64,000 nucleotides of DNA from Desulforamulus ruminis DSM 2154. Its GTDB lineage: Bacteria > Bacillota > Desulfotomaculia > Desulfotomaculales > Desulfotomaculaceae. The notes beneath the pieces are model-generated. The model searched no databases. It was not told the DNA's origin and worked only from the letters and a program-made list of their open reading frames with translations. Both the position numbers and the translations under genes were made by a program. Position 1 is the first letter of the stretch; every line of letters starts with the position of its first letter. The stretch lies in assembly GCF_000215085.1 (NCBI RefSeq), contig NC_015589.1, positions 3,794,120 to 3,858,119 of the forward strand, given 5' to 3'. Below are positions 23,653-45,051 of this stretch, piece by piece.

Positions 23653-24249
23653 TTAAAATTGCATAGATTGCAAAAAAGATGACCGCTGTTTTTCTTCTGC
23701 CTCTTCCAACTTACGGAGCGTTTCCGCTCTCGCCAATGCACCAACCACTTGTTCCGGAGCAAACTTGGCTATTTCCAATAAGGCTACTTCTGGAGCAAAT
23801 TCTTTTATTGTATTTCGATATTCTCTTTTAGTAACCATTGCGTTATACACATCGCAAGCTGCCAGTACCAACACGTCCAAGGGAGGGTCATATATACCAT
23901 TTGGGTACCCTAGACCGCCGGGTCTCTCATGGTGTTGGGATACTAAACGCAAGATATCCCGGGACACATTCGGCCATTTACTTAAAATGATTTTTTCACC
24001 TTGAATGGTGTGATCTTTTATCACATCCCACTCATGAGGAAGAACAGGTGTTTTATAAAACAACTCCTTAGGCCAAGTAGTTTTACCCAGGTCGTGCAAA
24101 AATGCCGCTATACCTACATAGGCAACTCTTCTCTTATCAAACGACATGATAATGGCAGTTCTTATTGCCAGTTCCATTGTTTGCTCCGCATGCTTGTGTA
24201 GCACTGGTATTGGCCTCATCAACTTTTCCGCCCAATATAGATTTTTCAT
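23653..24249 (-). CDS. HD-GYP domain protein (c-di-GMP phosphodiesterase-like)
   Basis: A 198-aa single-domain HD-GYP protein with FLHDLGKTTW (HD at about 52-53) and the signature HHERPGGLGYP (about 108-118). DVYNAMVTKREY follows. HD-GYP enzymes hydrolyse cyclic di-GMP to pGpG or GMP. No sensory domain is attached, so its input must come from elsewhere. I chose ATG 24247-24249, 8 nt after AAAGGTGG. Together with the GGDEF protein at 55.4 kb it gives the element both synthesis and breakdown of c-di-GMP, which in other bacteria controls pili. Confidence 0.9.
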   Translation of the reverse strand: MKNLYWAEKLMRPIPVLHKHAEQTMELAIRTAIIMSFDKRRVAYVGIAAFLHDLGKTTWPKELFYKTPVLPHEWDVIKDHTIQGEKIILSKWPNVSRDILRLVSQHHERPGGLGYPNGIYDPPLDVLVLAACDVYNAMVTKREYRNTIKEFAPEVALLEIAKFAPEQVVGALARAETLRKLEEAEEKQRSSFLQSMQF

Positions 24250-24326
24250 GTTTAACACCACCTTTAATTTTTATTTCTATCTAAAATATGAACCCCGCCA
24301 AAAAGGCAGGGTAAGGATAGGATTAT

Positions 24327-25397
24327 CTATGCTATACAAAATTTCATATTCCCAAGATTCAGAGGTTTTTCTGTTTCGGCTTCGTAAGTAGAAATATCGT
24401 ACTGGGCAGAAATAATTTTAAAATAGCCGGCAGCATTTGCTAGCTGTGGATTTTCCACAATGATTGTTTCAGGATGAATCTCTTTAAGAGTATCTTCTAG
24501 TAGTAAGACGCCTCCACCAATAAGATAAATATGTTCCATTAGATCTGTATTATCTCGCCACTTTGATCTAACCAGATCAATAATCGTCTTCGCTATGGCC
24601 TGCTTCGCCTGATTAATTTCATCCTTGATGGAATGCTTTTTTCCTCTGTAAATAATATATTGTTTGATTATAGCACTTTCTATTTGACTAACATCTAATC
24701 GACAACCAATTTGAGCTCTTATTGTCTTTTGTAATAATTCGTAAACATTGCTTGTGGCCATATCAATTGTGTCACAAAGATCAGTTCGTAAGAACGTAGA
24801 TTTTCCTCGTGTCTCAAAGGCTACCACGTCACAAGTTTTATACCCTACGTCGATAACTCCCTCCAAATATTCGGAAGACATTACATTGTTATTTTTCCTT
24901 GGGATCAATGCGCCGGCAGCCTGCGGCAGTATAGAATGTTTTTTAAACTGAATCTTTTTTGTTTTACTCCTATGGGGTCCGCTAATAAACTGAACAGCGG
25001 AATAAAAGTGTGTCAAAAAATCTTCCATTTCATCTTTCTGGTAATCAAAATCTCCGTAAGGAAGTCCGGTTACTATATGCGTATCTTGTGGTTCTCTTGA
25101 AGCCAGCATCGCTGCCACAGTGGCTAGTAATATCTTGGTCATAGGGTGAGATATTTTGTAGGTATCAAGGGTATATGTTTTGTCCAAGGACTCTCGTTTT
25201 GCAAGCTCCCCTACAAAGTAATGTTTTCCATCAATCACTACATGTATATTATCCAGTTCATCGACTTCCTGGTTTAACTCATCTGCTATTCTCCGCTCAT
25301 GGCCAGAGCCAACAAAGGAAGGAATACATATTTCTTTACCTTCAGAATTACACCCTTTTACCCAACCATAACCTAGATCGATTGATATAACGAACAT
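24327..25397 (-). CDS. ParM/Alp-like plasmid segregation actin
   Basis: A 356-aa actin-fold ATPase: phosphate-1 motif ISIDLGYGWVKG (about 4-15), phosphate-2 region GVIDVGYKTCDVVAFE (about 190) and adenosine motif YLIGGGVLLLEDTL (about 300). ParM-type filaments push plasmid copies apart. That fits an element that is or was an autonomous plasmid. The adaptor protein ParR is not obvious. The next downstream gene encodes HD-GYP and the neighbouring small Cys-rich gene could be an adaptor only by speculation. The start follows GGAGAGTG. Confidence 0.85.
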   Translation of the reverse strand: MFVISIDLGYGWVKGCNSEGKEICIPSFVGSGHERRIADELNQEVDELDNIHVVIDGKHYFVGELAKRESLDKTYTLDTYKISHPMTKILLATVAAMLASREPQDTHIVTGLPYGDFDYQKDEMEDFLTHFYSAVQFISGPHRSKTKKIQFKKHSILPQAAGALIPRKNNNVMSSEYLEGVIDVGYKTCDVVAFETRGKSTFLRTDLCDTIDMATSNVYELLQKTIRAQIGCRLDVSQIESAIIKQYIIYRGKKHSIKDEINQAKQAIAKTIIDLVRSKWRDNTDLMEHIYLIGGGVLLLEDTLKEIHPETIIVENPQLANAAGYFKIISAQYDISTYEAETEKPLNLGNMKFCIA

Positions 25398-26680: not shown

Positions 26681-28336
26681 TTATTTAGTAATGGTCAAAT
26701 CAAGTACTTCATATATATTTCCACGCACATTTATAAAAGGATTTACCGATAAATGCTTTTGTTTTACTCCCTTCTGTGCGGTTAAAGTTATTCCGATGCT
26801 GGAGGGATTTACTGCATCCACGGGAACAATATATGATCCCCACCAGACATTGATATCATCCGTTATTGATTGTCTATTTGTTAACACGACGTTAGCGCCT
26901 GTTGTAAAGTCCGCCCATACCGTTTCTGCATTTCCTTCCGTTATTACTTCAAAAACAACATCCGCTCCGGCCTTTGCTTCTACCGGAAAGATATTTGTAG
27001 GTAATGTTTGTCCTATTTTGTTTTTAGCAATCGCAGTTACTTTTAAATCCCGTATATTTAAAGTGGTTGCCTCTAATTTTAAGTACAAGATTCTTGGCGT
27101 AACATTATCATCCATTGTGTTTAAAATGGCTTTTACAACATAGTCTTTTCCCACAGGAACCGTACACCATAGACCAGGTGCTACTTCAGTGAAATTGATT
27201 CCTCCATTGCTTGATACCCAATAGGAGATGGATGTATTTGCAGGAATATCTTCTGTTACTGTTAATTTAACTTCTTCAAAATCACTATCAGTAGAAAATA
27301 TTTTAGACCAATATTCTTTCGGTGCCATGTACCCACCCATCAGTTGCAGCCCTGTTTTCTCCATACGGCTATCACGAACCATTTTTCCTTGGGCATCATC
27401 ATAACGCCAATATTGGACCTCTCCGGATGAAGTTACGATTGCTTGATCATAGCTATCCGGTTTCAAAGAGATGGCAAAGGCTTCGGAAACAGTTCCAATA
27501 CTGTAGGCCGATACACTTTTTCCTCCCCCGGTATCATTATCAAAATAAAGCTGTGCATTTGATTTACTGTTTATTGCATGGGTGGACTGATCTGAACTAA
27601 GACTTAAAATCTCGGATAGTCCTGTAATTTTTTTTGCAGTGTCCTCTACGTAATTACCAGTAAAATCATCATACATTAAATAATAAATAGTATCTTTGGT
27701 GGCCACCCGAAGATCTGCGGTACCTTTAACAATAGATACTGCAACAGGGTCTTGGATGGTGGTATTTTGTGTTAATTCGTTGACTAAAGCCCCGGACCGG
27801 GCATTATAAATTTTTAATTGTGCGCTGCCTTCATCATCTTTTATTAATACGGCCGCTTTATCAGAACCCTCCCAGGCATCCACCGACACCACCGCCCCTA
27901 TGCCCGAGGCCTTTAAGGCAGGCTCATCAGCCATAGCAGAGCCGTTGAATTTAGCGTATTGTACTCCGTCCTGGCGAATAGCCCATATGTTTAGATTATC
28001 CTGTCTGATAGCTACCCCAATGGCATCTGTAATAAATGGGCAGGAAAAAATATTGTTCTGTTTTATGGAATCTGCAGAATCATCGCATTCGTACATTTGT
28101 ATACCGGTTTTTGTTACCACTGCATATCCATCACCATACTTATTCATCGCGATAGCATTTGGGGTGTTTATCATTGGTAGTTTAACGGAGGTATCGGAAA
28201 GATCAATAATTGCGGTCGTCTTTGTCATATCCACATGGGTGGTATTGATAAAGTCATCCTCAAATACGGTTAAGGCCCAGGCAGGGACTGGAAGTGATAA
28301 AAGAAAAATCATGATTAAGAGATACCGGTACACCAT
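26681..28336 (-). CDS. Secreted repeat protein, probable beta-propeller
   Basis: A 551-aa protein with a signal peptide ending VPAWA (about residue 22). The first 330 residues contain repeated short motifs of the kind GVAIRQDNLNIWAIRQDGVQYAKF and AVSIVKGTADLRVATKDTIYYLMY, suggesting propeller blades. Beta-sandwich segments follow (about 330-551; ISYWVSSNGGINFTEV). No catalytic motif was seen. Its style, with signal peptide, blades and beta-domains, resembles the module-bearing genes just downstream in coordinates (29-34.6 kb), so it may be a related surface protein outside the recombination region. ATG was chosen 6 nt after AGGAGG. Confidence 0.7.
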   Translation of the reverse strand: MVYRYLLIMIFLLSLPVPAWALTVFEDDFINTTHVDMTKTTAIIDLSDTSVKLPMINTPNAIAMNKYGDGYAVVTKTGIQMYECDDSADSIKQNNIFSCPFITDAIGVAIRQDNLNIWAIRQDGVQYAKFNGSAMADEPALKASGIGAVVSVDAWEGSDKAAVLIKDDEGSAQLKIYNARSGALVNELTQNTTIQDPVAVSIVKGTADLRVATKDTIYYLMYDDFTGNYVEDTAKKITGLSEILSLSSDQSTHAINSKSNAQLYFDNDTGGGKSVSAYSIGTVSEAFAISLKPDSYDQAIVTSSGEVQYWRYDDAQGKMVRDSRMEKTGLQLMGGYMAPKEYWSKIFSTDSDFEEVKLTVTEDIPANTSISYWVSSNGGINFTEVAPGLWCTVPVGKDYVVKAILNTMDDNVTPRILYLKLEATTLNIRDLKVTAIAKNKIGQTLPTNIFPVEAKAGADVVFEVITEGNAETVWADFTTGANVVLTNRQSITDDINVWWGSYIVPVDAVNPSSIGITLTAQKGVKQKHLSVNPFINVRGNIYEVLDLTITK

Positions 28337-28346
28337 CAACCCCCTC

Positions 28347-29102
28347 CTATTCTTTCGCGTTTTGAGCTATATCCAGTTTAATTATCTTCCATTCCCCCGC
28401 CAGATCTACCATATCTACAATTGCTTTAATGACTGCAGGTCTATACCCTTCTATTTGAACCGTATAAAGGGCATTGGCGACAAGATATTTCTCGCTTATC
28501 CCCAACGGGGTGATTTCCAATACCTTTGTTTTAGGCTGCATCTCAGGTACATGAGGATTAGACTTCTGAGAGAGCTCTAATATAGGACCTGCAAGATAAA
28601 GATAGTCCTTTTCCTTTTTTTCTGACATAGGCAATTCCAGGTAGGTTTTCAATTTCTCTCTCGCTGCAACCGGCATTGTACCGTTTTTTAGATTGTCGGG
28701 CTTTAGCTCTTTCTGAGATACTTTATAAATCAGCCAATGTTCACCTGTTTTTTGAAGACGGAACTCATAAGAGGATAAGTCATTAAACTTAGTGACACCG
28801 TAATTATTGGTTTTAATAACATCAGCTTTAATCACGGCAAAGGTATCGGTTTGAATCTCTGACGCTGTTTGAATGGAAATTACTTTTTGTGTGGTTTTCA
28901 CTCGTTCCATTCCAGTCTGCATCTCCTGTAAAGCCTCCCCTGAAAGCATTGGCACTACGGTGTCCCATTTTGCTTGGCTGGCAGCATCTATGTAGTTTTT
29001 TACAGCGTAGTCTGGACCATCGTCCGTAGGAATGATTTTTTGATTGCATCCGGAAAGAACTATACTGATTAACAAAGCAGCCGTTAGAAAGATTTTTTTC
29101 AT
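28347..29102 (-). CDS. Lipoprotein with NTF2-like repeats
   Basis: A 251-aa protein with a clear lipobox (LSGC, Cys19) after a hydrophobic signal. The rest looks like two NTF2-like alpha/beta domains (about 30-130, AVKNYIDAASQAKWDTVVPML; and 145-245). Similar lipoproteins and TcpC/VirB8-type proteins occur in Gram-positive transfer systems, but the family here is not certain. It is 10 bp upstream of the secreted repeat protein, so the two are probably made together. Confidence 0.7.
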   Translation of the reverse strand: MKKIFLTAALLISIVLSGCNQKIIPTDDGPDYAVKNYIDAASQAKWDTVVPMLSGEALQEMQTGMERVKTTQKVISIQTASEIQTDTFAVIKADVIKTNNYGVTKFNDLSSYEFRLQKTGEHWLIYKVSQKELKPDNLKNGTMPVAAREKLKTYLELPMSEKKEKDYLYLAGPILELSQKSNPHVPEMQPKTKVLEITPLGISEKYLVANALYTVQIEGYRPAVIKAIVDMVDLAGEWKIIKLDIAQNAKE

Positions 29103-29125
29103 TGGTTTCCCCCCTTAAAATAAAT

Positions 29126-29152
29126 CTACCCCAGTCTTTACGACTGGGGTAG
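29126..29152 (-). terminator. Terminator at the constant end of the shufflon
   Basis: CTACCCCAGTC (29126-29136) pairs with GACTGGGGTAG (29142-29152), just after the stop of the 29157-30758 gene. On the minus strand it is followed by ATTTATTTTAAGG. It insulates the shuffled gene from the lipoprotein operon. Confidence 0.85.
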
Positions 29153-29156
29153 AAAT

Positions 29157-30758
29157 TTAAAACTTCCTGATTACAATGGTTTTACTCCCAACGTTGCCGG
29201 CAGCATCCTGAACACTTACAGTGATTGAATTATTTCCGGAGCTATATACCGGTAAAGTTATTCGTCCGTCATCGGGTAATGTACTATAGGAACCACCATT
29301 GATGCTATAAGTGTACGGTCCGGGGCGGTTATCCGTAACCGTTACAATGGCTTGAATACTGCTTCCGGATGTCGCTCTGGCTCCTGAAACCGTTTGTATC
29401 TCTACCGTTGGTGGCATGGTATCACTGTTTTGGATATTGGTTACGGACACCTGAAGGTTATTTAGTTTCGTTTCAAGGGAGGGAAGCTGCGTGTTACGAA
29501 TATATGTTGCATCCTGAGAGGCCTGATTAGCCTTGTCATAACTTTGGTGCGCCCAACTGGCCGCTGAGGTCCCTGCATCCACTGTCTGATTGACGGCGGT
29601 CTGCGCCCTGGAGGCTGCGGTGTCCGCTGAGGCCTTAGCACCTTGGGCGGCCGTTACAGCCGCCCCGGTATTCGCAGCCGCGGCATCAGCACTGACTTTA
29701 GCTGCATCAGCAGACTTTTTAGCAGCTTCAATTAGTTTGGATGAAAACCCATCCGTATCTGTGAGCCATGCTCCTTCTATATAAGCAGCCGCCTGTTTCC
29801 CGTTTATGGCCCAGACTATACCGGAACTATCAACCGTAAAATCGGATATTCCAAATGGTGCTGGCATAGTTATTTTCCAAATGCCTTCATCATAATATGC
29901 TAGTTTAGTACCATCAGTATTTGAAATACCCCAAATTTTGCCGCCGGGTCCAAGTTCGATGTTTGCATAAGTTTTTACAGGATTAGCAGAACGGTCATCC
30001 TTTGAAAAGTTCTTTATGGTCCAGACTCCGTTTTTATAAAGAGCCCACCCATATCCATAACTATAATCTGCAAATGCCATGATCGAACCATCTTCCGTTG
30101 TTGTAAGCCCCCCTATCATATTTCCATTTGGGAAAGGAGGATCACAACGAACCCAACTAGAGCCATTCCAATAGGCTACCTTATTATAGTCTCCTTGACC
30201 ACTTCCGCAAACCCAAGGTCTACCATCATGGTCTATGGTTAAACATGGTCCAGACAAATAAAATGGGGCTTTTACAGGCAGATTTGTAAATCCTTCACCG
30301 TTAAAATATGCTACCGTTGGAGTATTTTTAACATCTCTGCTGGGATACCCCCATGTCCATACGGTACCATCATTAGCTTTTACAAAATAACGATAACCAT
30401 AGTCACTTACAGTTTTCCCTCCCGCAGTCATTTGGAAGTATCCCGTAGAATATTCATTATCGTTGGTCCTCACACCTGAAAACCAAAGCCGCCCCATATC
30501 GTCAATAAATATATCAAATTTATTTTCATATGCTGAACCATAGGGACCCGATAGGCTTGTATTTCCGGAAACCCAACTGGAGCCATTCCAGTAATAATTT
30601 GGGTTTCCGGTTTCTCTAATCGCCCAAATGATTCCATCTTTTGAGGTAACTTTTAACATTTCATTTGGTATCGTTCCAAAGGAAGTCGCAAAGGCTACTC
30701 CCGGCAAAAGGCCAGCTATTAGGAGGACAATTAACATATTTATTAATCTCTTCTTCAT
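29157..30758 (-). CDS. Shuffled surface protein, full-length form (module A + constant C-terminus)
   Basis: A 533-aa secreted protein. The signal peptide (MKKRLINMLIVLLIAGLLPGV..AFA) is followed by a propeller-like part with WNGSSWV-type repeats (about 25-345). An Ala-rich coiled coil follows (about 345-435; AAKKSADAAKVSADAA), ending DATYIR at the recombination core. After the core come a short coiled coil (NTQLPSLETKLNNLQVSV) and an Ig-like domain (about 460-533; VEIQTVSGARATSGSS, NSITVSVQDAAGNVGSK). Only this gene carries the last about 110 residues. Coding sequence before the core is 70 bp identical to module B, and homology stops exactly after ATATATTCGTA. It probably acts outside the cell, perhaps on the neighbouring pilus. 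Confidence 0.8.
   Translation of the reverse strand: MKKRLINMLIVLLIAGLLPGVAFATSFGTIPNEMLKVTSKDGIIWAIRETGNPNYYWNGSSWVSGNTSLSGPYGSAYENKFDIFIDDMGRLWFSGVRTNDNEYSTGYFQMTAGGKTVSDYGYRYFVKANDGTVWTWGYPSRDVKNTPTVAYFNGEGFTNLPVKAPFYLSGPCLTIDHDGRPWVCGSGQGDYNKVAYWNGSSWVRCDPPFPNGNMIGGLTTTEDGSIMAFADYSYGYGWALYKNGVWTIKNFSKDDRSANPVKTYANIELGPGGKIWGISNTDGTKLAYYDEGIWKITMPAPFGISDFTVDSSGIVWAINGKQAAAYIEGAWLTDTDGFSSKLIEAAKKSADAAKVSADAAAANTGAAVTAAQGAKASADTAASRAQTAVNQTVDAGTSAASWAHQSYDKANQASQDATYIRNTQLPSLETKLNNLQVSVTNIQNSDTMPPTVEIQTVSGARATSGSSIQAIVTVTDNRPGPYTYSINGGSYSTLPDDGRITLPVYSSGNNSITVSVQDAAGNVGSKTIVIRKF
29495..29505 (-). repeat. Recombination core site A
   Basis: ATATATTCGTA read on minus, codons TAT-ATT-CGT (Tyr-Ile-Arg). 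Next bases are ACACGCAG, leading into the constant C-terminus. It is inverted relative to site B (31986) and D (34535) and direct relative to C (32244). Confidence 0.85.
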
Positions 30759-30972
30759 TGATTACACCTACTTTCCTTAATTTGATTATTTCCTCTTCTA
30801 AATCAATGATTAAAGGTCCATAATCATCACATCCTTTATAAATTCAAAACCCCTCTCGCTATGAACAGTGAGAGGGGTTTTTATTATAAAAATAAAAATG
30901 AAAGGTTGTGATAACAATGTTGTATTAATTTTAATCAGGTTTTTTAAAACAAATAAAGAAGGAGGCTATATT
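30759..30972. promoter_or_regulatory. Centre of invertible segment 1: divergent leaders
   Basis: 214 bp between the divergent start codons of modules A and B. It holds a hairpin AAAACCCCTCTC (30846-30857) / GAGAGGGGTTTT (30870-30881). A near copy lies between modules C and D. Towards module A, on minus, the motif AAAGGATGTGATGATTATGG occurs. The same motif in altered form precedes D (AAAGGATGTGGTAGG). No clear sigma-A promoter was found. The hairpin could terminate transcription entering from outside, leaving each module dependent on its own leader. Confidence 0.6.
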
Positions 30973-32004
30973 TTGAAGAATCAAAAGTTAAATATCAAAA
31001 TATTTCAATTGATACTTATGTGCTTTATCTTTATAGCTTTTTTAAAATGTAATGTCTCTGAGGCAGCATTAAGCTATAAAACAGATAACCAAACAGGAAA
31101 TATGGGACTATTTTATAGTTCAGAGTCATCTACTTATAGTGGTAATGTTATTGGCATAGGAAGTACCAATGGGGTGCTTTCAATTAGAGAAATAACCTTC
31201 AGGGTAAAACGAGTAGGTAGTTACTCCAGTTCAGTATTTTCGATGTATGCAGTTCGGGAAGCAGGCAGTAACTCAAGTAGACCATATTCTCCACGACCAA
31301 CGGATGATGTTAATTATCAGGTATTACAGACATCCTTTTCTGATACAGCATGGCATCAATATACTGTGACGGTTCCGGATAATGGATATGACCAGATAGT
31401 GCTGTTAGATGACGAAAAATACTATAGTAACAGTACCCGGTTTCAAGTTGAAATACAAAATGTAAAATACTATGACTATAGTAATACTTATACGGTAACT
31501 GCTAACTACAATATGGATACAAAAAAAATTGATTTTTATTTGGTTTCCAATGAAAATTTACCTTCTTTAGATATTTATATTAGTGGCCAAAGCAGCAAAT
31601 ATATTGAACGTACTTTTACTGCGGGTACCACTTTAATTTATAGTGACGCAAGTATAACCACGGATAAATATTACAACTATACAACAAGGTACGGCTTTGA
31701 AGCAATGACATGGTGGGGGACATGGCTATACGCAGGGACTAATCCCGGACCGTCCTTTACAATTTACACTTATTCTGATGCCTACTATGCGAAAGAGGCT
31801 GCGGAAGAAGCAAGAGATGCAGCCAACTCAGCCGTTACAGCCGCCCAGGGAGCCAAAGCCTCAGCCGATGCCGCAGCCTCCAGGGCACAGACCGCCGTTA
31901 ATCAGACGATTGATGCCGGAACCTCGGCGGCCAGTTGGGCGCACCAAAGTTATGACAAGGCTAATCAGGCCTCTCAGGATGCAACATATATTCGTATTCC
32001 GTAG
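30973..32004 (+). CDS. Shufflon module B: secreted beta-rich protein
   Basis: A 343-aa product starting at TTG 30973-30975, 7 nt after GAAGGAGG. The signal peptide ends about NVSEA. A beta-rich Tyr/Ser-rich body follows (about 35-270; TYSGNVIGIGSTNG, YNMDTKKIDFYLVS), then an Ala-rich coiled coil (AAEEARDAANSAVTAAQ) nearly identical to that of module A. The frame crosses the core as YIR and stops two codons later (Ile-Pro-stop). The passenger part is unrelated to the propellers of A and D. Inversion between sites A and B would join it in frame to the constant C-terminus. Confidence 0.75.
   Translation: MKNQKLNIKIFQLILMCFIFIAFLKCNVSEAALSYKTDNQTGNMGLFYSSESSTYSGNVIGIGSTNGVLSIREITFRVKRVGSYSSSVFSMYAVREAGSNSSRPYSPRPTDDVNYQVLQTSFSDTAWHQYTVTVPDNGYDQIVLLDDEKYYSNSTRFQVEIQNVKYYDYSNTYTVTANYNMDTKKIDFYLVSNENLPSLDIYISGQSSKYIERTFTAGTTLIYSDASITTDKYYNYTTRYGFEAMTWWGTWLYAGTNPGPSFTIYTYSDAYYAKEAAEEARDAANSAVTAAQGAKASADAAASRAQTAVNQTIDAGTSAASWAHQSYDKANQASQDATYIRIP
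31986..31996 (+). repeat. Recombination core site B
   Basis: ATATATTCGTA on plus, codons TAT-ATT-CGT, then TTCCGTAGTAAT, so translation stops after Ile-Pro. The 12 bases after the core are the same as at site C in inverted orientation. The 70 bp before the core equal those before site A. Confidence 0.85.
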
Positions 32005-32235
32005 TAATATAGCCATATTTAAGCCTTTATAGGGCGATTTATCTCCTAATAAATAACATATTAATGAAAAATTTTTTAAATCTGTTATTATAAGTAATTA
32101 ATTTTTGTGATAGAAAATAAATTTTGTCTTAAATTGATTTTAGAATGGAATAGCTGATAATAGAAAAATCCTTATATTACAAGGGCTCTGGCTTGTTCTT
32201 TAATTTTTTAAAGGCTTGTTTTATAACGCAAATTA
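32005..32235. other. AT-rich spacer between the two invertible segments
   Basis: 231 bp, very AT-rich, with no credible gene. It is flanked by cores B and C in inverted orientation, so it could invert by itself without changing any protein. Confidence 0.6.
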
Positions 32236-33075
32236 CTACGGAATACGAATATATCCTGCCAGGTTCCCTACACTTTCGGAGGCCCCACCGTAGGTACCGG
32301 TGTACCAGGAATACCCTGCTGCTTTATCAGCACTTATTTTGGCCTGCTCGGCGTAGGTGATAGATAAATCCGGTAATGTAGTTACTGAGTATTCTTGAGA
32401 GAAATATTGTCTTCCACTTTTTGCATTGATTCTGATTCTATAGTAGTAGTTTGTATTGGCTGATAAACCAACATCAGAAAATAAGTTTAGGTTTTGTGTT
32501 GTAACTAAATCGACAAAAGAGGAGCTGCTTGTTCTTCTTTGAATGGTATAACTAGTATCCTGGGGGTTGTCCATGGTATCTATTTTAAGCGTCACCGTGT
32601 CAACTCCAACTGTTAGAGGAAGAATTCCACCTCCACCTGCTTTGGGTATAGCCGGATCGGTGTACATCTCAAAATATTGTATTTCCGAATGATCAACGCT
32701 TCTACTCTGAGTCGGTGTTATTACACTCCAGGCTCTTATATATAGTTGATATCGAGTATCAGGTATTAAACCGCCAAATGTTCCAATAGTGCAGGTTTTT
32801 TCTCCAACGGTTTTTAACTCATCGACTTTAAAAGTGGTTGTGGCTGTATCGGGGAATTTATAAGTAGCGTCTAGCCCAAAATTACTCTTTACCCCTTTAA
32901 TAAGAATAGAGTTGGCTTCAGGAATATATACAACCTTTAATGTTACTGGATAATTTACATGGTTGCCAATCCACGTAAATTGGCCTGAGTCATACTGAGC
33001 AGCAAAAGCATTTTGAGTAAAGGTCATTGAAGTAACTATTAGGGTAATTAGAAAAATAAGCTTTTTATAAATCAT
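32236..33075 (-). CDS. Shufflon module C: secreted fibronectin-III-like protein
   Basis: A 279-aa product. ATG 33073-33075 follows AAAGGAGGTAAGGAAA; a longer frame reaches 33174 but gives no signal peptide. The signal peptide is MIYKKLIFLITLIVTSM..NAFA. Two beta-sandwich parts follow, the second FN3-like (about 160-250; DTSYTIQRRTSSSSFVDL, NYYYRIRINAKSG). A short helix and the tail YTGTYGGASESVGNLAGYIR at the core close the module, stopping after Ile-Pro. The tail resembles the end of module D. Confidence 0.75.
   Translation of the reverse strand: MIYKKLIFLITLIVTSMTFTQNAFAAQYDSGQFTWIGNHVNYPVTLKVVYIPEANSILIKGVKSNFGLDATYKFPDTATTTFKVDELKTVGEKTCTIGTFGGLIPDTRYQLYIRAWSVITPTQSRSVDHSEIQYFEMYTDPAIPKAGGGGILPLTVGVDTVTLKIDTMDNPQDTSYTIQRRTSSSSFVDLVTTQNLNLFSDVGLSANTNYYYRIRINAKSGRQYFSQEYSVTTLPDLSITYAEQAKISADKAAGYSWYTGTYGGASESVGNLAGYIRIP
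32244..32254 (-). repeat. Recombination core site C
   Basis: ATATATTCGTA on minus with codons TAT-ATT-CGT, then TTCCGTAGTAAT. It pairs with site D as the inverted flanks of segment 2. Confidence 0.85.
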
Positions 33076-33308
33076 TTTCCTTACCTCCTTTGAAAACCTT
33101 AATTTAATCCAATTTCCTAATCCGGATTTATTGTTCGCTATAACTGCATCATTATAGGCAAAACCTCCTTTCATTATGTTATATATAAATAAACCCTCTC
33201 GCTACACAGTGAGAGGGTTATTTATCAAATTTATTAAAGGATGTGGTAGGTATGGCCTTTTAGTTCGGATCGAAGCAAGGTAAATAATTATTGAAAGTAG
33301 GTGTATTC
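33076..33308. promoter_or_regulatory. Centre of invertible segment 2: divergent leaders
   Basis: 233 bp between modules C and D. The hairpin AACCCTCTC (33192-33200) / GAGAGGGTT (33211-33219), with the same GCTA..CAGT loop theme as segment 1, lies in the middle. On plus, AAAGGATGTGGTAGGTATGG precedes module D. On minus an AAAGGAGG with short frames precedes module C. The shared layout shows the two segments arose by duplication. Confidence 0.6.
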
Positions 33309-34568
33309 ATGAGAATAGTTATAAGGTGGTTTTTACTCATTTTGATACTGCAGACAATGGAACCTTCGGCTCATGCAGCTTCCTTTGGAACATTGCCAGG
33401 CAATAAATTCTCCCGAATAACTTCAAGTAATGGATTGATATGGATCACTAAGAATTTTGGAACAACGAACTACTATTGGAATGGTTCTGCTTGGATAGCC
33501 GGTAATTCCACCATATCTGGCACCTATCCCTATAATAAAACGCCAAACGATGCTGTTTATGATATTTTCATTGATAACCAAGGTCGTTTATGGTTTTCCG
33601 GTTTGTATGATTCTGATGATAATAGACATACAACGGGTTATTTCCAAATGAATTCAACAGGAAAAGTCATAAGTAACTTTGGCTATGAATATTTTTTCAA
33701 AGCGAAAGATGGTACTGTATGGACTTTTGGTTATCCAGAGGGAGATTATTATCGTTATCCAACCGTTGGGTATTTTACCGGTGAAGGATTTACGCATTTA
33801 CCAGTGTATGCTCCTTTTAATATACATTGTTTTACTGTAGATCATACTGGGAAACCCTGGATTGGAAGCGACAATAATGAGGTAGCCTATTGGAATGGCT
33901 CCAGTTGGGTTCGTTGTGATCCTCCTATCCCGGGGCGGTGTAATATATGGACTTTAGCTACCACGAGTGATGGTTCAATCATAGCAGTAGCCTCAGATGA
34001 TTACGCTTCTGGATGGGCTATTTATAAAAGTGGTACTTGGACCCTCATGGAAAGTGCATCTGATTCCTCTAGTGCAAGACCCATTAGTAGCTTAAAAGTA
34101 GAAAACGGTCCAGACGGTAAAATATGGGGAGTAACCACCGCGGGGGGATTATCCTATTATGAAGATGGAATATGGAAAAAAACAATTCCATCACCAATTG
34201 GAATAGCCGATTTTACAGTGGACAGTACTGGCATTGTATGGGTGGTAAGCGATACTAAAGTCGCTGCTTACATTGAAGGGGCTTGGTATACAGATACCGA
34301 TAGTTTTTCAGCCAAATTGATTGAGGCAGCCAAAAAAGCTGCCGATAAAGCAGCCTTAGAAGCGCAGGAAGCTAATGAAAGTGCTACGAGTGGTAAAAAC
34401 ATTCTCGAAAATGGATATAACAACAATGGTAAGTCTCTGAGCGCTACTTACGATAAGGCCAATAATGCCCAGAACAATTCCTGGTACACCGGGACCTACG
34501 GCGGAACAGCAGAATCCGTAGGTAACGTGGCCGGATATATTCGTATTCCGCAATATCATGGCTCATAA
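33309..34568 (+). CDS. Shufflon module D: secreted propeller protein
   Basis: A 419-aa product with start ATG 33309-33311, using the same AAAGTAGGTGTA ribosome-binding region as module A. The signal peptide ends about PSAHA. The body is a clear paralogue of module A (for example YYWNGSAWIAGN, VAYWNGSSWVRCDPPIPG, IADFTVDSTGIVWVV). The coiled coil differs (KAADKAALEAQEANESATSG), and the tail YTGTYGGTAESVGNVAGYIR matches module C. After the core the frame reads Ile-Pro-Gln-Tyr-His-Gly-Ser-stop. Inversion between sites A and D could place it on the constant C-terminus. Confidence 0.75.
   Translation: MRIVIRWFLLILILQTMEPSAHAASFGTLPGNKFSRITSSNGLIWITKNFGTTNYYWNGSAWIAGNSTISGTYPYNKTPNDAVYDIFIDNQGRLWFSGLYDSDDNRHTTGYFQMNSTGKVISNFGYEYFFKAKDGTVWTFGYPEGDYYRYPTVGYFTGEGFTHLPVYAPFNIHCFTVDHTGKPWIGSDNNEVAYWNGSSWVRCDPPIPGRCNIWTLATTSDGSIIAVASDDYASGWAIYKSGTWTLMESASDSSSARPISSLKVENGPDGKIWGVTTAGGLSYYEDGIWKKTIPSPIGIADFTVDSTGIVWVVSDTKVAAYIEGAWYTDTDSFSAKLIEAAKKAADKAALEAQEANESATSGKNILENGYNNNGKSLSATYDKANNAQNNSWYTGTYGGTAESVGNVAGYIRIPQYHGS
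34535..34545 (+). repeat. Recombination core site D
   Basis: ATATATTCGTA on plus, in frame as Tyr-Ile-Arg, followed by TTCCGCAATATC. It is the outermost core, 55 bp from the end of the recombinase gene. Confidence 0.85.
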
Positions 34569-34600
34569 TTAGGAAACGGGTTAAAACTTAACCCAAAACC

Positions 34601-35569
34601 TTAACGAAAAGTCTTTAGATAAGCCTCCTTTCGGCGGTGAATGTTAACTTGTGCGTAGATCTGAGTGGTACTAGGTGATGAATGTCCCAATATCCCCTGC
34701 ACATCTTCTAATCTGGCTCCGTGATTAATCATTGTAGTGGCCATGGTATGACGCATTACATGAGGATGTACATTTTTAACAAAATTTACTCGCTTAACTA
34801 TTTTCTTAAACACTGATTGAATTGATCTAGGAGATAATCTTTTAATGGGGCTCTTTTCCGTAACAAACAAGGCATCTTCTTGGTCTTGTCGGCTAGATAA
34901 ATATTTTTTTAATGCGAAAACGGCCCTGGAATTAATGAATACAGGTCGCTCCTTATTGCCCTTTCCAATGACGACAATCGTTCTTTCTTGCCAGTTTATA
35001 TCCGTTATGTTCATGTTATGGATTTCTTTTAACCTGCCACCAGTGGCATAAAATACTTCGACGATGGCCTTTTCCCTAAGAGATTTACAACCTTCTCTTA
35101 ATATCTCTAATTCATCTAATGAAAGTGCTTTAGGCAATCTTTTAGGAAGCTTTGGTGTTTTGATTTTTCTTGTTGGATCGATTAAGATATATTCTTCTGT
35201 GATTAAGTAATTATAAAATGATTTTAATACGCTTATATAATATCGCATGGTAGACAGCTTAATTCCTTCATGGGCATTTAGCCATTCTCTTATATTGTTT
35301 GATGTCACACTCGCTACATCTTTCTGAATATAAATGCCAAAATCAATTAGAACGCCTTTATATTTCTTTAGAGTTTCTCCCGAAAGACCTTCCGTTTTTT
35401 TAATTAGAATAAAATCATCAAGTAATTTCATAAAATAGGGAGATGAACCTTTGGGGATTTTTTTGATTTCATATTGATTTAGTAATTCATGCAGATCATT
35501 TTTTAAAATTTCTGTATCCTTTGTTCCCTCTAATATTTGGATAATTTTTAAAGTAAGTTCATCTAGCAA
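34601..35569 (-). CDS. Tyrosine recombinase, probable shufflon invertase
   Basis: A 322-aa XerC/D-type recombinase with an N-terminal core-binding SAM-like domain (about 45-130) and a full catalytic set: Arg179 (ATGGRLKE), Lys203 (GKGNKERP), His270/Arg273 (HPHVMRHT), His296 (LGHSS) and nucleophile Tyr305 (TTQIYAQV). It is convergent with module D and adjacent to core D, as rci is next to the R64 shufflon. No excision factor is seen. It could instead be the element's integrase, but no attachment repeats were noticed and the in-frame cores beside it favour a DNA-inversion role. Start is TTG with a weak ribosome-binding site. Confidence 0.88.
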   Translation of the reverse strand: MLDELTLKIIQILEGTKDTEILKNDLHELLNQYEIKKIPKGSSPYFMKLLDDFILIKKTEGLSGETLKKYKGVLIDFGIYIQKDVASVTSNNIREWLNAHEGIKLSTMRYYISVLKSFYNYLITEEYILIDPTRKIKTPKLPKRLPKALSLDELEILREGCKSLREKAIVEVFYATGGRLKEIHNMNITDINWQERTIVVIGKGNKERPVFINSRAVFALKKYLSSRQDQEDALFVTEKSPIKRLSPRSIQSVFKKIVKRVNFVKNVHPHVMRHTMATTMINHGARLEDVQGILGHSSPSTTQIYAQVNIHRRKEAYLKTFR

Positions 35570-35641
35570 TTTTTATCCCGCCTTATCCTTTATTTTCCCC
35601 CCATTATTATATAAGACAAGGCTGAATCTTTTTTTGATGAT

Positions 35642-35752
35642 TTACTTCTTTTTAGTAAATTTATAATCATTCAAGATCTTATTTAACTCGATTTTTAATT
35701 CACTTTGTGTTTTTCCCTTTAAAGAGATGATCTTCATTACTAGATTTTTCAT
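35642..35752 (-). CDS. Possible 36-aa basic peptide
   Basis: ATG 35750-35752 follows GAGGGATAAAAC directly after the glycosyltransferase stop, so the gene could be translated from that message. The product, MKNLVMKIISLKGKTQSELK then IELNKILNDYKFTKKK, is a basic amphipathic helix. Homologue unknown. It lies just upstream of the recombinase gene on the same strand and could be a recombination-directionality or accessory factor; that is speculation. Confidence 0.4.
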   Translation of the reverse strand: MKNLVMKIISLKGKTQSELKIELNKILNDYKFTKKK

Positions 35753-35755
35753 GTT

Positions 35756-36478
35756 TTATCCCTCAAATACAAAAGTTTTTGTTTTCTTCCTGTTCTTTTT
35801 ACAGGGAAAAGCTAACAGGAATAGATACCTGGGTACCAAACTGAAATATCTCATTTTACTTTCTCCCGCTGTCCGGTTTACTAGATTCAAGGGTATTTCT
35901 GCAAATCTTACCTGTACTAATTGCTGAAGTATTTTTAGCTGCACCTCAAACCCCGAACCAATTTCCCCAAGGTCCTGTACAGCCCCCCTACGATAGGCCC
36001 TTAATCCGGAGGTACAGTCCTTTACCCTTATATCTAAAGAATTTCGTATAAGCCAGTTCCCAAGCCGTGAGATAATCATTCGCCAACGAGGAACTCCTTT
36101 CATGCCTCCTCCCTGAATGTATCGGGAACCGATAACGACATCCGCTCCCATCTTGATCTCCTCTATCATTTTGGGAATTAAACTGGGGGGCTGTGAAAGG
36201 TCTGCATCCAGTGTAACAACCACATCTCCTTTAGCATGACTAAATCCAGTCTTTAATCCTGCGCCAAGGCCTTGGTTTACAGGGTGCGTGACTACGGCCA
36301 GATTGTTATACTCTTGTTGTAATCGTAAAAGGATCTCCCCTGTACGGTCACTGCTGCCATCATTTACAATAAGCATATCGAAACTTAATAACCCGCCTAA
36401 CTGATCCATTACGGTCCTTACAAATTTTTCAATTACTGCTTCTTCGTTATAAGCCGGTGCTAAAACCGTTACCTTCAT
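35756..36478 (-). CDS. Family 2 glycosyltransferase (polyprenyl-phosphate mannosyltransferase-like)
   Basis: A 240-aa GT2 enzyme of the DPM1/dolichyl-phosphate mannose synthase type. It carries LAPAYNEEAVIEKFV, LIVNDGSSDRTGEIL, QGLGAGLKTGFSHAKG, the DxD TLDADLSQPP (about 91-98) and CTSGLRAYRRGAV. It should load a sugar onto a polyprenyl phosphate on the cytoplasmic face. The gene follows a small multidrug-type transporter-like gene and a GT-C-like membrane transferase. Together they would make, flip and use a lipid-linked sugar, probably for glycosylating exported proteins. Confidence 0.88.
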   Translation of the reverse strand: MKVTVLAPAYNEEAVIEKFVRTVMDQLGGLLSFDMLIVNDGSSDRTGEILLRLQQEYNNLAVVTHPVNQGLGAGLKTGFSHAKGDVVVTLDADLSQPPSLIPKMIEEIKMGADVVIGSRYIQGGGMKGVPRWRMIISRLGNWLIRNSLDIRVKDCTSGLRAYRRGAVQDLGEIGSGFEVQLKILQQLVQVRFAEIPLNLVNRTAGESKMRYFSLVPRYLFLLAFPCKKNRKKTKTFVFEG

Positions 36479-36515
36479 TCATAACACCCCCAAAGTAGTC
36501 CTTATAAAATGAAAA

Positions 36516-36540
36516 ACCAGGCTACACATAGTAACCTGGG
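36516..36540 (-). terminator. Hairpin after the EamA-like gene
   Basis: CCAGG (36517-36521) pairs with CCTGG (36535-36539), plus inner TAC/GTA. On minus it is followed by TTTTTCATTTT. It would partly separate the glycosyltransferase from the two upstream genes. Confidence 0.65.
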
Positions 36541-36554
36541 TATCTCTCCTTCTT

Positions 36555-36884
36555 TTACTTCCCCAGCAGCCACACACCGCCACCAATCAATGCAACACCT
36601 ACCCACTGATGAACGGTTAGCCATTGGCCACTTAATATTCCCGCCCCTAGGGCGACTAACATATAAGTGATTCCAGCAACCGGTACCGCCTGGGCGACAG
36701 GCTTGGATGCCAGGAAAGGTAACCATGCTAGCATGCTTAAAAAATAACAGGTTACCCCTGCAATAACGGCTGGATGTAGTAACGCCCATAACCCTGAGCC
36801 AGCCCTGGATACACCTTCTTTAACCAGCAAATGGCCACCGGCCCCTAGAACCAGGGAAAGTGCAAGGCTAATGGTTATATTCAT
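36555..36884 (-). CDS. Small EamA/SMR-like membrane protein
   Basis: A 109-aa protein with four hydrophobic helices (ITISLALSLVLGAGGHLLV, PAVIAGVTCYFLSMLAWLPF, AVPVAGITYMLVALGAGIL, VGVALIGGGVWLLG). It resembles ArnE/ArnF-type flippase subunits and small EamA proteins. I chose ATG 36882-36884, 8 nt after GGAGG. In this operon a lipid-linked sugar flippase is the natural role, but a drug or solute exporter is possible. Confidence 0.75.
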   Translation of the reverse strand: MNITISLALSLVLGAGGHLLVKEGVSRAGSGLWALLHPAVIAGVTCYFLSMLAWLPFLASKPVAQAVPVAGITYMLVALGAGILSGQWLTVHQWVGVALIGGGVWLLGK

Positions 36885-38488: not shown

Positions 38489-38520
38489 AAAAATACCTCC
38501 CCGACCGGGGAGGTATTTTT
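38489..38520 (-). terminator. Terminator of the Tad pilus operon
   Basis: AAAAATACCTCCCC (38489-38502) pairs with GGGGAGGTATTTTT (38507-38520), a 14-bp stem ending in a T-run on minus. The tadE stop codon lies at the edge of the stem. It separates the pilus operon from the glycosylation operon. Confidence 0.88.
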
Positions 38521-38914
38521 ATGGTTTTTCCAATTTGAACACTTGGCTGCTCTCTAATAAAAAATGATTTCCCCAAGCACTGCCGCCAATTAGTTGAGGC
38601 AGCAGCGGGAAAAGGGCCGGTTGATTATACTTTACAGTAACCGTAACATAATTGGTGTCCCTAACCACCGTCACGCTTTGTTTATTGGCAACATTCAGTT
38701 TACCATCCGTTAATACTTCATCCACCTTTGTCTCAGCACTTCCTAAATTAAGGGCCTCATAGCGCGCCCCTTCCCTTGCCGCATCCACTACCACAATTTT
38801 GGCCCAAAGGGCTAAAATAACAATCATACTGCCCGCGGTTAAAAATGTGATTAGTGGTAGAACAACGGCTAATTCCGCTGTAATGGAACCTCTTCGGCAC
38901 TTTAAGAAATTAAT
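38519..38914 (-). CDS. TadE-like pseudopilin, probable ATT start
   Basis: A 131-aa protein with the TadE N-terminus (CRRGSITAELAVVLPLITFL) and one membrane helix followed by an external beta part (KQSVTVVRDTNYVTVTVKY). TadE proteins are minor pseudopilins of Tad pili. ATG 38927-38929 contains the GGAGG of its own Shine-Dalgarno and overlaps cpaA. The ATT at 38912-38914 is 8 nt after GGAGG and begins MINFLKCRRGS, which fits the family better. I use it as the start. Confidence 0.85.
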   Translation of the reverse strand: MNFLKCRRGSITAELAVVLPLITFLTAGSMIVILALWAKIVVVDAAREGARYEALNLGSAETKVDEVLTDGKLNVANKQSVTVVRDTNYVTVTVKYNQPALFPLLPQLIGGSAWGNHFLLESSQVFKLEKP

Positions 38915-38919
38915 CGGGT

Positions 38920-39420
38920 TCACCTCCATAAAAGGAAACCAATGGTACTCAGCGCGACATAAACGGCAAATGGCTGCCCCTTCCCGTACATTGGTATCTC
39001 TTCTTTGCTAAAATCCTGAATGCTGGTCTTGGCGTAGAGATAGGCGCCATGACTTACGGTAAAGGTCATTAAATCTTTTAGTTTACCTTGTTTTGCTAAA
39101 ACAATTATGGAGCAAATTCCATTAATTAATGCTGATAATATGGCAATTATGATGATGCTTTGGAAACCCAGAAAGGCTCCTACAGCGATCATTAATTTAG
39201 CATCCCCGGCCCCGACACCACAAAACAAATATACCGGATATGAAAGTATAAATCCGGCAGCGATTCCTGCTAAGGAAAAGAGGAGGCCGGGGCCGGCCAA
39301 AGTGTTAATGACCACCCCCAGAAAAATCAACCCAAAAGTTAACCAGTTAGGAACGATGCGGTCTTTGAGGTCCGTATAGCTCCCAATCAAAAGCCCGGCT
39401 AATAGCACACTAACAGTCAT
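38920..39420 (-). CDS. Prepilin peptidase CpaA/TadV
   Basis: A 166-aa type IV-like prepilin peptidase with six hydrophobic segments. The catalytic aspartates are Asp17 (SYTDLKDRIVPNW) and Asp73 in the GxGD motif GVGAGDAKL. It cleaves the leader of Flp pilins and TadE/G pseudopilins at the membrane. Short length and absence of the methylase domain are normal for CpaA. It follows the two pilin genes. Confidence 0.93.
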   Translation of the reverse strand: MTVSVLLAGLLIGSYTDLKDRIVPNWLTFGLIFLGVVINTLAGPGLLFSLAGIAAGFILSYPVYLFCGVGAGDAKLMIAVGAFLGFQSIIIIAILSALINGICSIIVLAKQGKLKDLMTFTVSHGAYLYAKTSIQDFSKEEIPMYGKGQPFAVYVALSTIGFLLWR

Positions 39421-39434
39421 GGTTCTGATACCAC

Positions 39435-39626
39435 CTAGTAGGAGAAGCCGCTGGCTGCATCCAGCTTAGCACCACCTGCCGAGGAAGTACTTTTTACCTT
39501 GCCTGCGAAGTACATCCCCAGGCCAACTGCTGCTATCGCCCCCAATACAAGAAGTCCCGCATACTCAGGAGTAGAACCTTTTTCCTCTTTCAAAAACTCT
39601 TTAACCATTCCAAATAGCCTTTTCAC
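39435..39626 (-). CDS. Flp-type pilin 1
   Basis: A 63-aa Flp/Fap pilin: charged leader (VKEFLKEEKG), cleavage region KGSTPEYAGLL with the conserved Glu-Tyr, hydrophobic helix (LVLGAIAAVGLGMYFAG) and short tail. Only three residues lie between Gly17 and Glu-Tyr, one fewer than in the usual Flp leader. Start GTG lies 8 nt after GGAGG. It is the probable major pilin or one of two. Confidence 0.9.
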   Translation of the reverse strand: MKRLFGMVKEFLKEEKGSTPEYAGLLVLGAIAAVGLGMYFAGKVKSTSSAGGAKLDAASGFSY

Positions 39627-39665
39627 TTTAAATTCCTCCGTTTCTTTTTATAAACCGGCAACCGG

Positions 39666-39812
39666 CTAAAGTTTTGAGCCAATTGCCTGAAAAACTGCTT
39701 TGATTTTTGGAGCAAAATAGGTCATGGCACCAACGCCTATTGCTAACCCCAGTACTAATAGGCCGGTGTATTCGGGAGCCACTGCTTTATTTTCTAAAAT
39801 AAATGACTTCAT
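39666..39812 (-). CDS. Flp-type pilin 2 (48 aa)
   Basis: A short gene, ATG 39810-39812 with AGGAGGGAAGTTG upstream and TAG at 39666. The product begins MKSFILENKAVAPEYTGLL and continues through a hydrophobic helix (VLGLAIGVGAMTYFA) to a basic tail. It matches Flp pilin 1 around the PEYxGLLVLG motif. The position of the usual leader glycine is Ala (KAVAPEY), so processing may differ or be absent. It lies between tadC and pilin 1. Confidence 0.85.
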   Translation of the reverse strand: MKSFILENKAVAPEYTGLLVLGLAIGVGAMTYFAPKIKAVFQAIGSKL

Positions 39813-39833
39813 CAACTTCCCTCCTTTCATTGT

Positions 39834-40706
39834 CTAAAATGCCAACAGTTTCCCAATTCCTATCAATGGGGGGCCCAAGACTACAATTAATAATGCGGGC
39901 AAGATGAAGAAAAAAAGAGGCGCAAGCATTTTAATCGTCGCTGCCTGGGCCATTTTCAACGCATTTGTTTTATAATTTTGTCTGATCCGGTTAACCTGAT
40001 CCTTTAAGACCTTTGCCATGGATACACCGGTTTTTTCAGCTTGATTAATGGCATCAATTAATAATGTGACGTCTTCTACATCCAATCGTTCTGCCAAGGC
40101 CATAAAGGCTTGAGCCCTTCTCCGGTTTAATGCGATTTCACTAAATGCAATTTGAAATTCTTCCGCCAACACGCCAGGGATCTGTCTTGTCACCTTATCA
40201 ATGGAATTATTCAGTTCCAATCCGGCTTCAATTCCGTTTGCCACCAGATCAATAAAATCTTGCACTTCATTTTGTGCTCTTTTTTGCCGGGCAATGATTC
40301 TGCGCTTAATTAAAATGGGCGGCAGAAGATAGAAAAATGCACCCGCGCAGCCAGCAAAAATGAACATCCCCTGCACATCCGGAAACATGAGGATGCACAT
40401 TAGAACGACTACCATAAGAGTTGAAGCCCATCGAAGAAGATAGATATCTTCCGGATTGTATTTTGATAAGTTCGCCCTTTGAAGGCTCACCCTCATGCCC
40501 TCCAGGACGGTTTCAGAAGGTAAAAGTGGTTGAATGATTTTTAGAATTAACTTTTTAATATTTTTAGAATGGGTCGGTTTCTGATTTTCCGTTTGTATAT
40601 ATTCCTCCAAACGTTTTCGGGCTTCTCTTTGTTTACTAATTAAATAACCAAAGAAAAAAACGGGAATTGCACCACAGAAGATACCAATTTGAATATATAC
40701 GTTCAA
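39834..40706 (-). CDS. TadC-like pilus platform protein
   Basis: A 290-aa membrane protein with a T2SSF domain (about 150-270; DFIDLVANGIEAGLELNNSI, INQAEKTGVSMAKVLKDQVN) and C-terminal helices (MLAPLFFFILPALLIVVLG). TadB and TadC form the inner-membrane platform for pilin polymerisation. Start is TTG behind AAGGGGGTG. It is directly downstream of tadB. Confidence 0.92.
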   Translation of the reverse strand: MNVYIQIGIFCGAIPVFFFGYLISKQREARKRLEEYIQTENQKPTHSKNIKKLILKIIQPLLPSETVLEGMRVSLQRANLSKYNPEDIYLLRWASTLMVVVLMCILMFPDVQGMFIFAGCAGAFFYLLPPILIKRRIIARQKRAQNEVQDFIDLVANGIEAGLELNNSIDKVTRQIPGVLAEEFQIAFSEIALNRRRAQAFMALAERLDVEDVTLLIDAINQAEKTGVSMAKVLKDQVNRIRQNYKTNALKMAQAATIKMLAPLFFFILPALLIVVLGPPLIGIGKLLAF

Positions 40707-40721
40707 TATTTATACACCCCC

Positions 40722-44284: not shown

Positions 44285-44285
44285 T

Positions 44286-45047: not shown

Positions 45048-45051
45048 AGGT

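Follow-up and report, generated by a model that had tools for sequence, protein, structure and literature searches.

Why do four neighbouring genes for secreted proteins end in one and the same 11-base-pair (bp) sequence, when only one of them continues past it into a further domain? The question is raised by the chromosome of Desulfotomaculum ruminis DL-T, described in the cited passage as a rumen isolate and sulfate reducer (PMC3569383), within a window of 64,000 nucleotides (the whole stretch of DNA that was analysed; positions 3794120-3858119 of a genome assembled as a single contig, 3,969,014 bases long). The published reads of this strain amount to 193x Illumina and 28x 454 coverage, with one 9-kb paired-end library (PMC3569383). 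With the gene that carries the constant end drawn rightward, the locus consists of a tyrosine recombinase gene pointing right, gene D pointing left, gene C right, gene B left, and gene A, fused to the constant part, right (Table 1). The answer favoured here, with a probability of roughly 0.85, is that the locus is a shufflon of reversed polarity beside a Tad pilus locus, in which modules are swapped onto one constant end. The original prediction, made from the sequence alone, described four signal-peptide genes in two divergent pairs (A minus and B plus, C minus and D plus), and their coordinates are borne out by the open reading frame (ORF) calls.

The first line of evidence is the shared sequence itself. 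The 11-bp core ATATATTCGTA, which had been proposed to run through all four 3′ ends, is present in exactly four copies in the window (29495 on the minus, 31986 on the plus, 32244 on the minus and 34535 on the plus strand), one in each 3′ end and in alternating orientation, and in none of 100 dinucleotide shuffles. When one mismatch is allowed, the same four copies are found, but 2 of 100 shuffles also reach four, so that the copy number alone is weak; the weight rests on the exactness of the copies, their location in all four 3′ ends, their alternating orientation and their recurrence in other species. In an alignment of nine sites from four genomes, the core is the centre of a 28-bp dyad site, in which two imperfect 11-bp inverted arms surround an invariant 6-bp TATTCG. 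A spacer of 6 at offset 0 obtained the top score among spacers of 4-10 and offsets of -6 to 6; since the scores of the other spacers about this axis are only slightly lower, the dyad axis is firmer than the spacer. The outer arms yield 48 matches, compared to 21.8 (standard deviation 3.8) for shuffled right arms, and none of 20,000 shuffles reach that number, a significance that is overstated because the sites are related by descent. The sites at which chromosome dimers are resolved (dif) follow the same 11-6-11 plan, and the asymmetry of TATTCG makes it able to give the sites direction. Further, the 12-base ATATATTCGTAT has four copies in the D. ruminis genome, three of which are the sites of B, C and D; the fourth (26029, minus strand) lies antisense within an unrelated frame of 526 amino acids and was taken as chance.

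The second line of evidence is the reading frame. All four 3′ ends read TAT ATT CGT (Tyr-Ile-Arg) in one common frame, after which B and C end within 2 codons and D after 7 codons, while A alone runs on for 112 residues, in agreement with the predicted stops at 2 to 7 codons and the predicted continuation of about 110 residues. Each gene starts with a hydrophobic signal peptide and a typical cleavage motif (judged by eye). All 4 of the window's modules join the constant part in frame, as the proposed inversions would demand, and the reversed polarity (a constant C-terminus and variable N-terminal modules, each of which brings a signal peptide and a leader) can be read directly from the sequence. 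The constant part had also been described as a coiled coil plus an Ig-like domain; the Ig-like domain stands, but only a short helical end belongs to the constant part, as most of the helical stalk precedes the core and lies inside the exchangeable module. In particular, an AlphaFold model of A, built on a 2-sequence alignment and with a mean predicted local distance difference test score (pLDDT) of only 61.9, has propeller strands at residues ~36-332, helices at 335-432 and Ig-like strands at 451-530. A beta-propeller is the probable fold of the A head and, through its homology, of the D head; the model resembles many unrelated propellers, lectins included, and so common a fold says nothing on function. 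The structure of B was too poor (mean pLDDT 50.7) and was left uninterpreted; PHROGs gave one weak tail-fibre match for this protein. A and D are 49% identical over 420 alignment columns, with heads that are alike and stalks that are not, while B and C, stalks aside, matched neither A, D nor each other in that comparison.

A complete tyrosine recombinase gene was expected beside the last core, and it is found 55 bp away. In the broad sense, a shufflon combines at least three alternating sites beside a tyrosine recombinase gene with alternative in-frame open fusions; the window has four such sites (the last core ending at 34545), and open fusions are obtained with 4 of 4 window modules and with the silent module of the congener G007, the silent module of a second congener, G002, being frameshifted upstream. 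The same arrangement recurs beyond the window. Of the 113 genomes examined from the class, 8 have a match to the recombinase at E ≤ 1e-75, and facing exact sites are present in 3 of those 8 (the window's genome, G007 and G002); at E ≤ 1e-85, with at most five candidates scored per genome, the recombinase is matched in 2 of the 398 genomes of a phylum sample (the window's genome and G024). The constant domain is matched at E ≤ 1e-5 in 24 of the 113 genomes, including 5 of the 8 with the recombinase. In G007, the order is a recombinase gene pointing right, a silent module pointing left and the constant gene pointing right, giving two modules; its recombinase is 57% identical to the window's, and its constant part about 85% (85.2 and 84.3% across the two congeners). 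Joining its silent module to the constant part preserves the frame, and the product of the reciprocal exchange also reads open. G002 likewise has two modules, with a recombinase 70% and a constant part about 84% identical; the contig with the recombinase overlaps the contig with the modules by 1,118 bases at 99.7%, with roughly 7 kb between them. Genome-wide, TATATTCGTANNNNGCA occurs exactly twice in each congener, always at the two sites, and a single match in G112, in an unrelated place, was taken as chance; a reversed control pattern also matched once. The arms of the silent sites in G007 and G002 are symmetric at 10 of 11 positions, those of their constant sites at 8 of 11. Comparison of these genomes therefore argues strongly for the predicted site-specific inversion system, by way of facing pairs with recombinase and constant part in two congeners, relics in two families, a dyad site and an exchange that keeps the frame.

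The relics are as follows. In G045 (L055, 11020-11700), from another family, the constant gene keeps TATATTCGT, and directly upstream lies a frameshifted recombinase start (42 residues at 52% identity; E = 1.7e-4 in a search of 20 loci). Also upstream, on the opposite strand and divergent, is a truncated signal-peptide start, which is read as the remains of a silent module. Between this start and the constant gene, an imperfect hairpin (10 of 11 positions) was seen by eye; a scripted search for perfect stems of at least 8 pairs found no hairpin there. The arm symmetry of the remaining site is 7 of 11. On these remains, G045 is a locus that lost its recombinase and locked. In G096, from a third family, a 30-residue relic of the recombinase N-terminus (L072, 7667-7756; 47%, E = 3.9e-4) precedes an 833-amino-acid gene with the constant domain. 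Such decayed copies in two other families suggest how these loci lock.

Could the four genes instead be ordinary, separate surface proteins, with TATATTCGTA present only as the code for a conserved Tyr-Ile-Arg, and with a stray mobile-element integrase as the recombinase? Tyr-Ile-Arg or a close variant is indeed kept in constant-domain genes without a recombinase, and the phage proteins that match the enzyme are integrases or unannotated. The codons, however, speak otherwise. Across 14 constant genes aligned from Tyr-Ile-Arg, TATATTCGT is used in four (the window, G007, G002 and G045) and other codons in ten; once the three genomes that have intact site pairs are set apart, 10 of 11 homologues use other codons, the exception being the G045 relic, which points to conservation of the site at the DNA level. 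The sites are also alternately inverted, not direct as in integration, and the layout recurs with the same recombinase, making this explanation hardly credible.

The stalks carry a different record. Next to and including the core, the A and B stalks are 89% complementary over 166 nt, and those of C and D 77% over 92 nt, similarities that core-specific recombination cannot create. These stretches, together with the A and D heads that are alike on unlike stalks, would be expected if modules were exchanged by homologous recombination or gene conversion between similar stalk repeats, with the recombinase irrelevant. That account leaves the exact core, the arms, the other codons in system-free homologues and the linked recombinase unexplained, and as a replacement for site-specific inversion it is very improbable; homologous recombination or gene conversion is probably an additional process, and the A-B similarity needs gene conversion in addition. 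Moreover, a stalk end of the type SE(S/N)V...GY(I/M/V) precedes the constant part in 10 of 14 genes, both congeners included (by eye), whereas in D. ruminis this type is on the silent C and D, and the constant part now stands behind the A/B type. The distribution would fit a footprint of a past partner change, with the caveat that the A/B type also precedes the constant part in one gene of G026, and that G045 and G112 fit neither type clearly.

The recombinase belongs to the Xer subgroup of simple tyrosine recombinases. It matches Pfam Phage_integrase (6.3e-40) and NCBIfam XerA_Arch (244.9 bits, cut-off 220), with the XerC and XerD models under their cut-offs; its best solved matches are XerC-like, XerD and XerA, and its PHROGs matches are mostly integrases. 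What we take to be the catalytic motifs appear intact in the alignment, and the protein ends 17 residues past the presumed catalytic Tyr, without a C-terminal domain of the Rci type. A scan of the genome contigs with the recombinase returned one match, at 26%. The recombinase tree has long branches and 4 of its 9 forks are open, so that only two pairings are used: the window's enzyme with its G002 counterpart (99/99), and G000_p2 with G000_p3, two paralogues (95/92). These two paralogues seem better candidates than the window's enzyme for dif and chromosome dimer resolution. Separately, most close relatives (not G002 as assembled) share with the window's enzyme an N-terminal extension (within residues 1-47, about 45 residues long; ...LLNQYEIKKI...), which G000_p2 and G000_p3 lack.

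Under the favoured reading, the adjacent Xer-like recombinase would exchange strands within TATTCG between facing sites, making A-B, C-D, B-C and A-D inversions possible. All sites share one reading frame and lie at the 3′ ends of their modules, so that inversion would place a different 5′ unit, complete from the presumed promoter region, dyad hairpin and mini-ORF leader through the signal peptide to the head and stalk, on the constant Ig-like end. When only inversions are enumerated, 16 arrangements can be reached, and every one of the four modules is the fused one in 4 of them. The constant end would probably dock the protein to the pilus or the cell surface and the head would be a binding domain; with an exchangeable binding head, the cell would therefore change its surface specificity. 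A docked protein of this kind is the most economical function that can be suggested. We infer the inversion itself from comparing sequences, and likewise the catalysis by the adjacent recombinase, the promoters, the docking and the binding.

Several observations weigh against this reading. No inverted junction was observed in the assemblies. The window's own sites are among the least symmetric, matching at 6, 5, 5 and 7 of 11 arm positions. The recombinase was not found in 7 of 9 other genomes of the family at E ≤ 1e-60, and at E ≤ 1e-75 it is missing from 19 of the 24 constant-domain genomes. Frameshifts interrupt the silent module of G002, where the recombinase match also begins only at residue 44, and this copy may be dead or poorly assembled. 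Sites A and C, as well as B and D, are direct repeats, and recombination there would delete modules; Rci has an extra C-terminal domain that, according to the cited passage, is thought to bias it toward inversion (PMC11852207), and with an enzyme that lacks such an extension the avoidance of deletion stays unexplained. Finally, the silent modules look able to yield truncated secreted proteins, unlike those of R64.

Some of the same facts would follow if the locus were an inversion system by descent that is locked or nearly dead in this strain, with A fixed on the constant end and B, C and D as decaying spare heads. Locking does occur in such loci, as seen from the G045 and G096 relics, and the frameshifted module of G002 and the weak arm symmetry of the window's sites lean the same way; against this, the recombinase and each of the four modules still have a start and an unbroken open frame, the modules keep their leaders, and the four cores are still identical. 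Locking is accordingly judged unlikely, though less so than the two alternatives above, and a working reversed-polarity shufflon remains the preferred reading.

The leaders are a further shared property of the modules. Both hairpins in the window have the form AACCCTCTC...GAGAGGGTT, the searched pattern is found nowhere else in the genome, and variants lie at the equivalent place in G007 and G002. Behind the hairpin and well upstream of the real start, 8 of 8 modules (four in the window, four in G007 and G002) have a mini-ORF, 1-4 codons long, preceded by a sequence that resembles a Shine-Dalgarno motif at 7-9 of 10 positions. Shuffled leaders reach at most 3 of 8 in 2,000 trials, and 3 of 54 other ORFs in the window have such a mini-ORF, by a criterion that was fixed after the eight leaders had been seen; among 27 other constant genes, it is present in 3, one of which is the G045 relic. 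The hairpin may keep transcripts from running antisense into the partner module, and the mini-ORF may tune the translation of its module. A search of Rfam (E ≤ 5, positions 28000-36600) gave 5 matches, all far under their gathering scores, so that no known RNA family accounts for the leaders. Promoter and terminator scans were no denser than chance (24 against 27.1 and 5 against 6.9 in shuffles), and therefore no promoter positions were assigned.

The setting of the locus was examined in 20 loci from 15 genomes, each at most 20 kb, fetched around constant domains; the neighbour counts below and in Table 1 rest on these. In the window, the Tad/Flp pilus locus lies upstream of the inversion locus, and its T2SSE ATPase has a TadA-like NCBIfam match of 295.5 bits, under the cut-off of 373. 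This ATPase is matched in 11 of the 20 loci, and the constant gene is thus encoded beside a Tad locus across species. Beyond the 552-amino-acid companion gene, at 23653-25397, are an HD-domain gene and an actin-like ParM-type gene, homologues of which lie near the constant gene in several relatives. PADLOC found no match for the five proteins submitted.

Table 1. Features of the inversion locus and its surroundings (window coordinates).
Feature	Position	Strand	Remarks
Recombination site 1 (A), 11-6-11	29486-29513	-	core 29495-29505
Recombination site 2 (B)	31978-32005	+	core 31986-31996
Recombination site 3 (C)	32235-32262	-	core 32244-32254
Recombination site 4 (D)	34527-34554	+	core 34535-34545
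Gene A	29157-30758	-	533 amino acids; probable propeller head, helical stalk, signal peptide; fused to the constant C-terminus in the assembly; from ORF, model and propeller matches
Constant part	29157-29504	-	115 codons, from the site Tyr to the gene end; short helix and Ig-like domain
Gene B	30973-32004	+	TTG start after AGGAGG; signal peptide, beta-rich head, A-like stalk
Gene C	32236-33075	-	signal peptide; fn3-like match under the Pfam cut-off
Gene D	33309-34568	+	probable propeller module, related to A
Xer-like tyrosine recombinase	34601-35569	-	presumed invertase of the four sites; from Pfam, NCBIfam and alignment
Dyad hairpin, 15-bp stem	30846-30881		between the divergent starts of A and B
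Dyad hairpin, 12-bp stem	33192-33219		between the divergent starts of C and D
Leader mini-ORF of A	30810-30821	-	ATG GAC CTT TAA behind AAAGGATGTG
Leader mini-ORF of B	30917-30928	+	ATG TTG TAT TAA behind AAAGGTTGTG
Leader mini-ORF of C	33138-33152	-	ATG ATG CAG TTA TAG behind AAAGGAGGTT
Leader mini-ORF of D	33252-33263	+	ATG GCC TTT TAG behind AAAGGATGTG
Terminator-like hairpin	29125-29153	-	directly 3′ of gene A
Two companions of the constant gene, 251 and 552 amino acids	26681-29102	-	matches in 19/20 and 18/20 loci
Tad/Flp pilus locus	38519-45074	-	TadE, prepilin peptidase, two T2SSF proteins, T2SSE ATPase, ParA-like ATPase, RcpC/CpaB; from Pfam

Several other genomes carry parts of the arrangement and were set aside. 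G070 has a recombinase (58%) beside a constant-like Ig gene, with no facing site pair recognised before the contig end; G024 has a recombinase and no constant-domain match at E ≤ 1e-5; and G038 and G095 have phage-like surroundings (judged by eye), the G095 frame holding a stop. G112 contains a 15-nt inverted pair at 93%, with one copy at the Tyr-Ile-Arg site and the other near the recombinase, which was not counted as support, as the second copy lies in no usable module and the arm symmetry is 6 and 5 of 11; the pair is a possible relic. In the same genome (L021, 6590-9278), two small genes that look like membrane-protein genes stand between the recombinase and the constant gene, within this degenerate facing pair. 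In G026 (L057, 3136-3906), a distant tyrosine recombinase (best 32%) lies about 6 kb from the constant gene with the A/B-type stalk end, and one copy of TATATACGTA is found there. G035 (L060-L062) has 7 constant-domain matches, some in neighbouring genes, and perhaps diversifies through whole-gene copies instead of a shared constant end.

How does the locus compare with known systems? In the open-access full-text literature, among the matches listed, there is nothing on this locus or on a surface shufflon with a constant C-terminus, and the original prediction that no Firmicute system of this layout had been described is not contradicted there. What is new is the 28-bp dyad site, the two congeners with the same system, the relics in two families, the in-frame fusions, and the shared hairpins and mini-ORF leaders. 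The closest relative in working is the pilV shufflon of R64 and TP114 (IncI plasmids) with its recombinase Rci, which in the passages cited likewise has several facing, alternating sites, a tyrosine recombinase at one end, a constant part at the other and a link to a type IV-class pilus (PMC9045228). By the same source, it has a constant N-terminus (345 amino acids in TP114 PilV) and variable C-termini, and sites with a 7-bp core and a conserved 12-bp right arm, in contrast to the constant C-terminus and the 11-bp arms around 6 bp found here; Rci has its extra C-terminal domain (PMC11852207), and the present recombinase does not. As the constant N-terminus with variable C-termini, an sfx site (the right arm shows no block-like conservation) and the extra recombinase domain are all lacking, the locus is not an Rci-type shufflon, though it is shufflon-like in its working.

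Other systems share single properties, as far as the cited passages describe them. The Rin shufflon of Bifidobacterium prophages has an XerD-like recombinase without an arm-binding domain, an 11-bp repeated site, a Gram-positive host and a varied binding protein; it differs in being phage-borne and in varying the C-termini of a phage receptor-binding protein behind a constant N-terminus (PMC6109161). In Ureaplasma, DNA inversion at mba and UU172 joins alternative halves of a surface protein, but what stays constant in mba is the 5′ end, which carries the signal peptide and anchor (PMC3047005). Pneumococcal hsdS also forms chimeric proteins through inversions between related genes, with the linked tyrosine recombinase PsrA acting in one of them; there, target domains of a modification-enzyme specificity subunit are swapped, and no secreted protein with its own leader is involved (PMC4948785). 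Small DNA inversions are described in Clostridia, including the related Desulfotomaculum gibsoniae, but they lie near signalling genes, with no swapping of heads in the passage (PMC5903667).

These comparisons invite a wider proposal, which is offered tentatively and falls somewhat short of being probable: that the locus represents a shufflon class of separate origin, with an Xer-type recombinase, dif-like 11-6-11 sites and a chromosomal Tad locus, in which one constant docking domain receives whole expression units, these units are kept apart and adjusted in their expression by the hairpin and mini-ORF leader, and regulation and specificity switch together. On the favoured reading itself, adhesin switching, described in the papers cited for plasmids, phages and mycoplasmas, would be placed beside the chromosomal Tad locus of an anaerobic sulfate reducer, and the compact facing sites, paired with an Xer-type enzyme that has no Rci tail, would make the preference for inversion over deletion directly testable. 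In the passages cited, R64/TP114, Rin and Ureaplasma mba all hold the N-terminus or the 5′ end constant, whereas here the C-terminus is constant, and complete heads would move with their own leaders.

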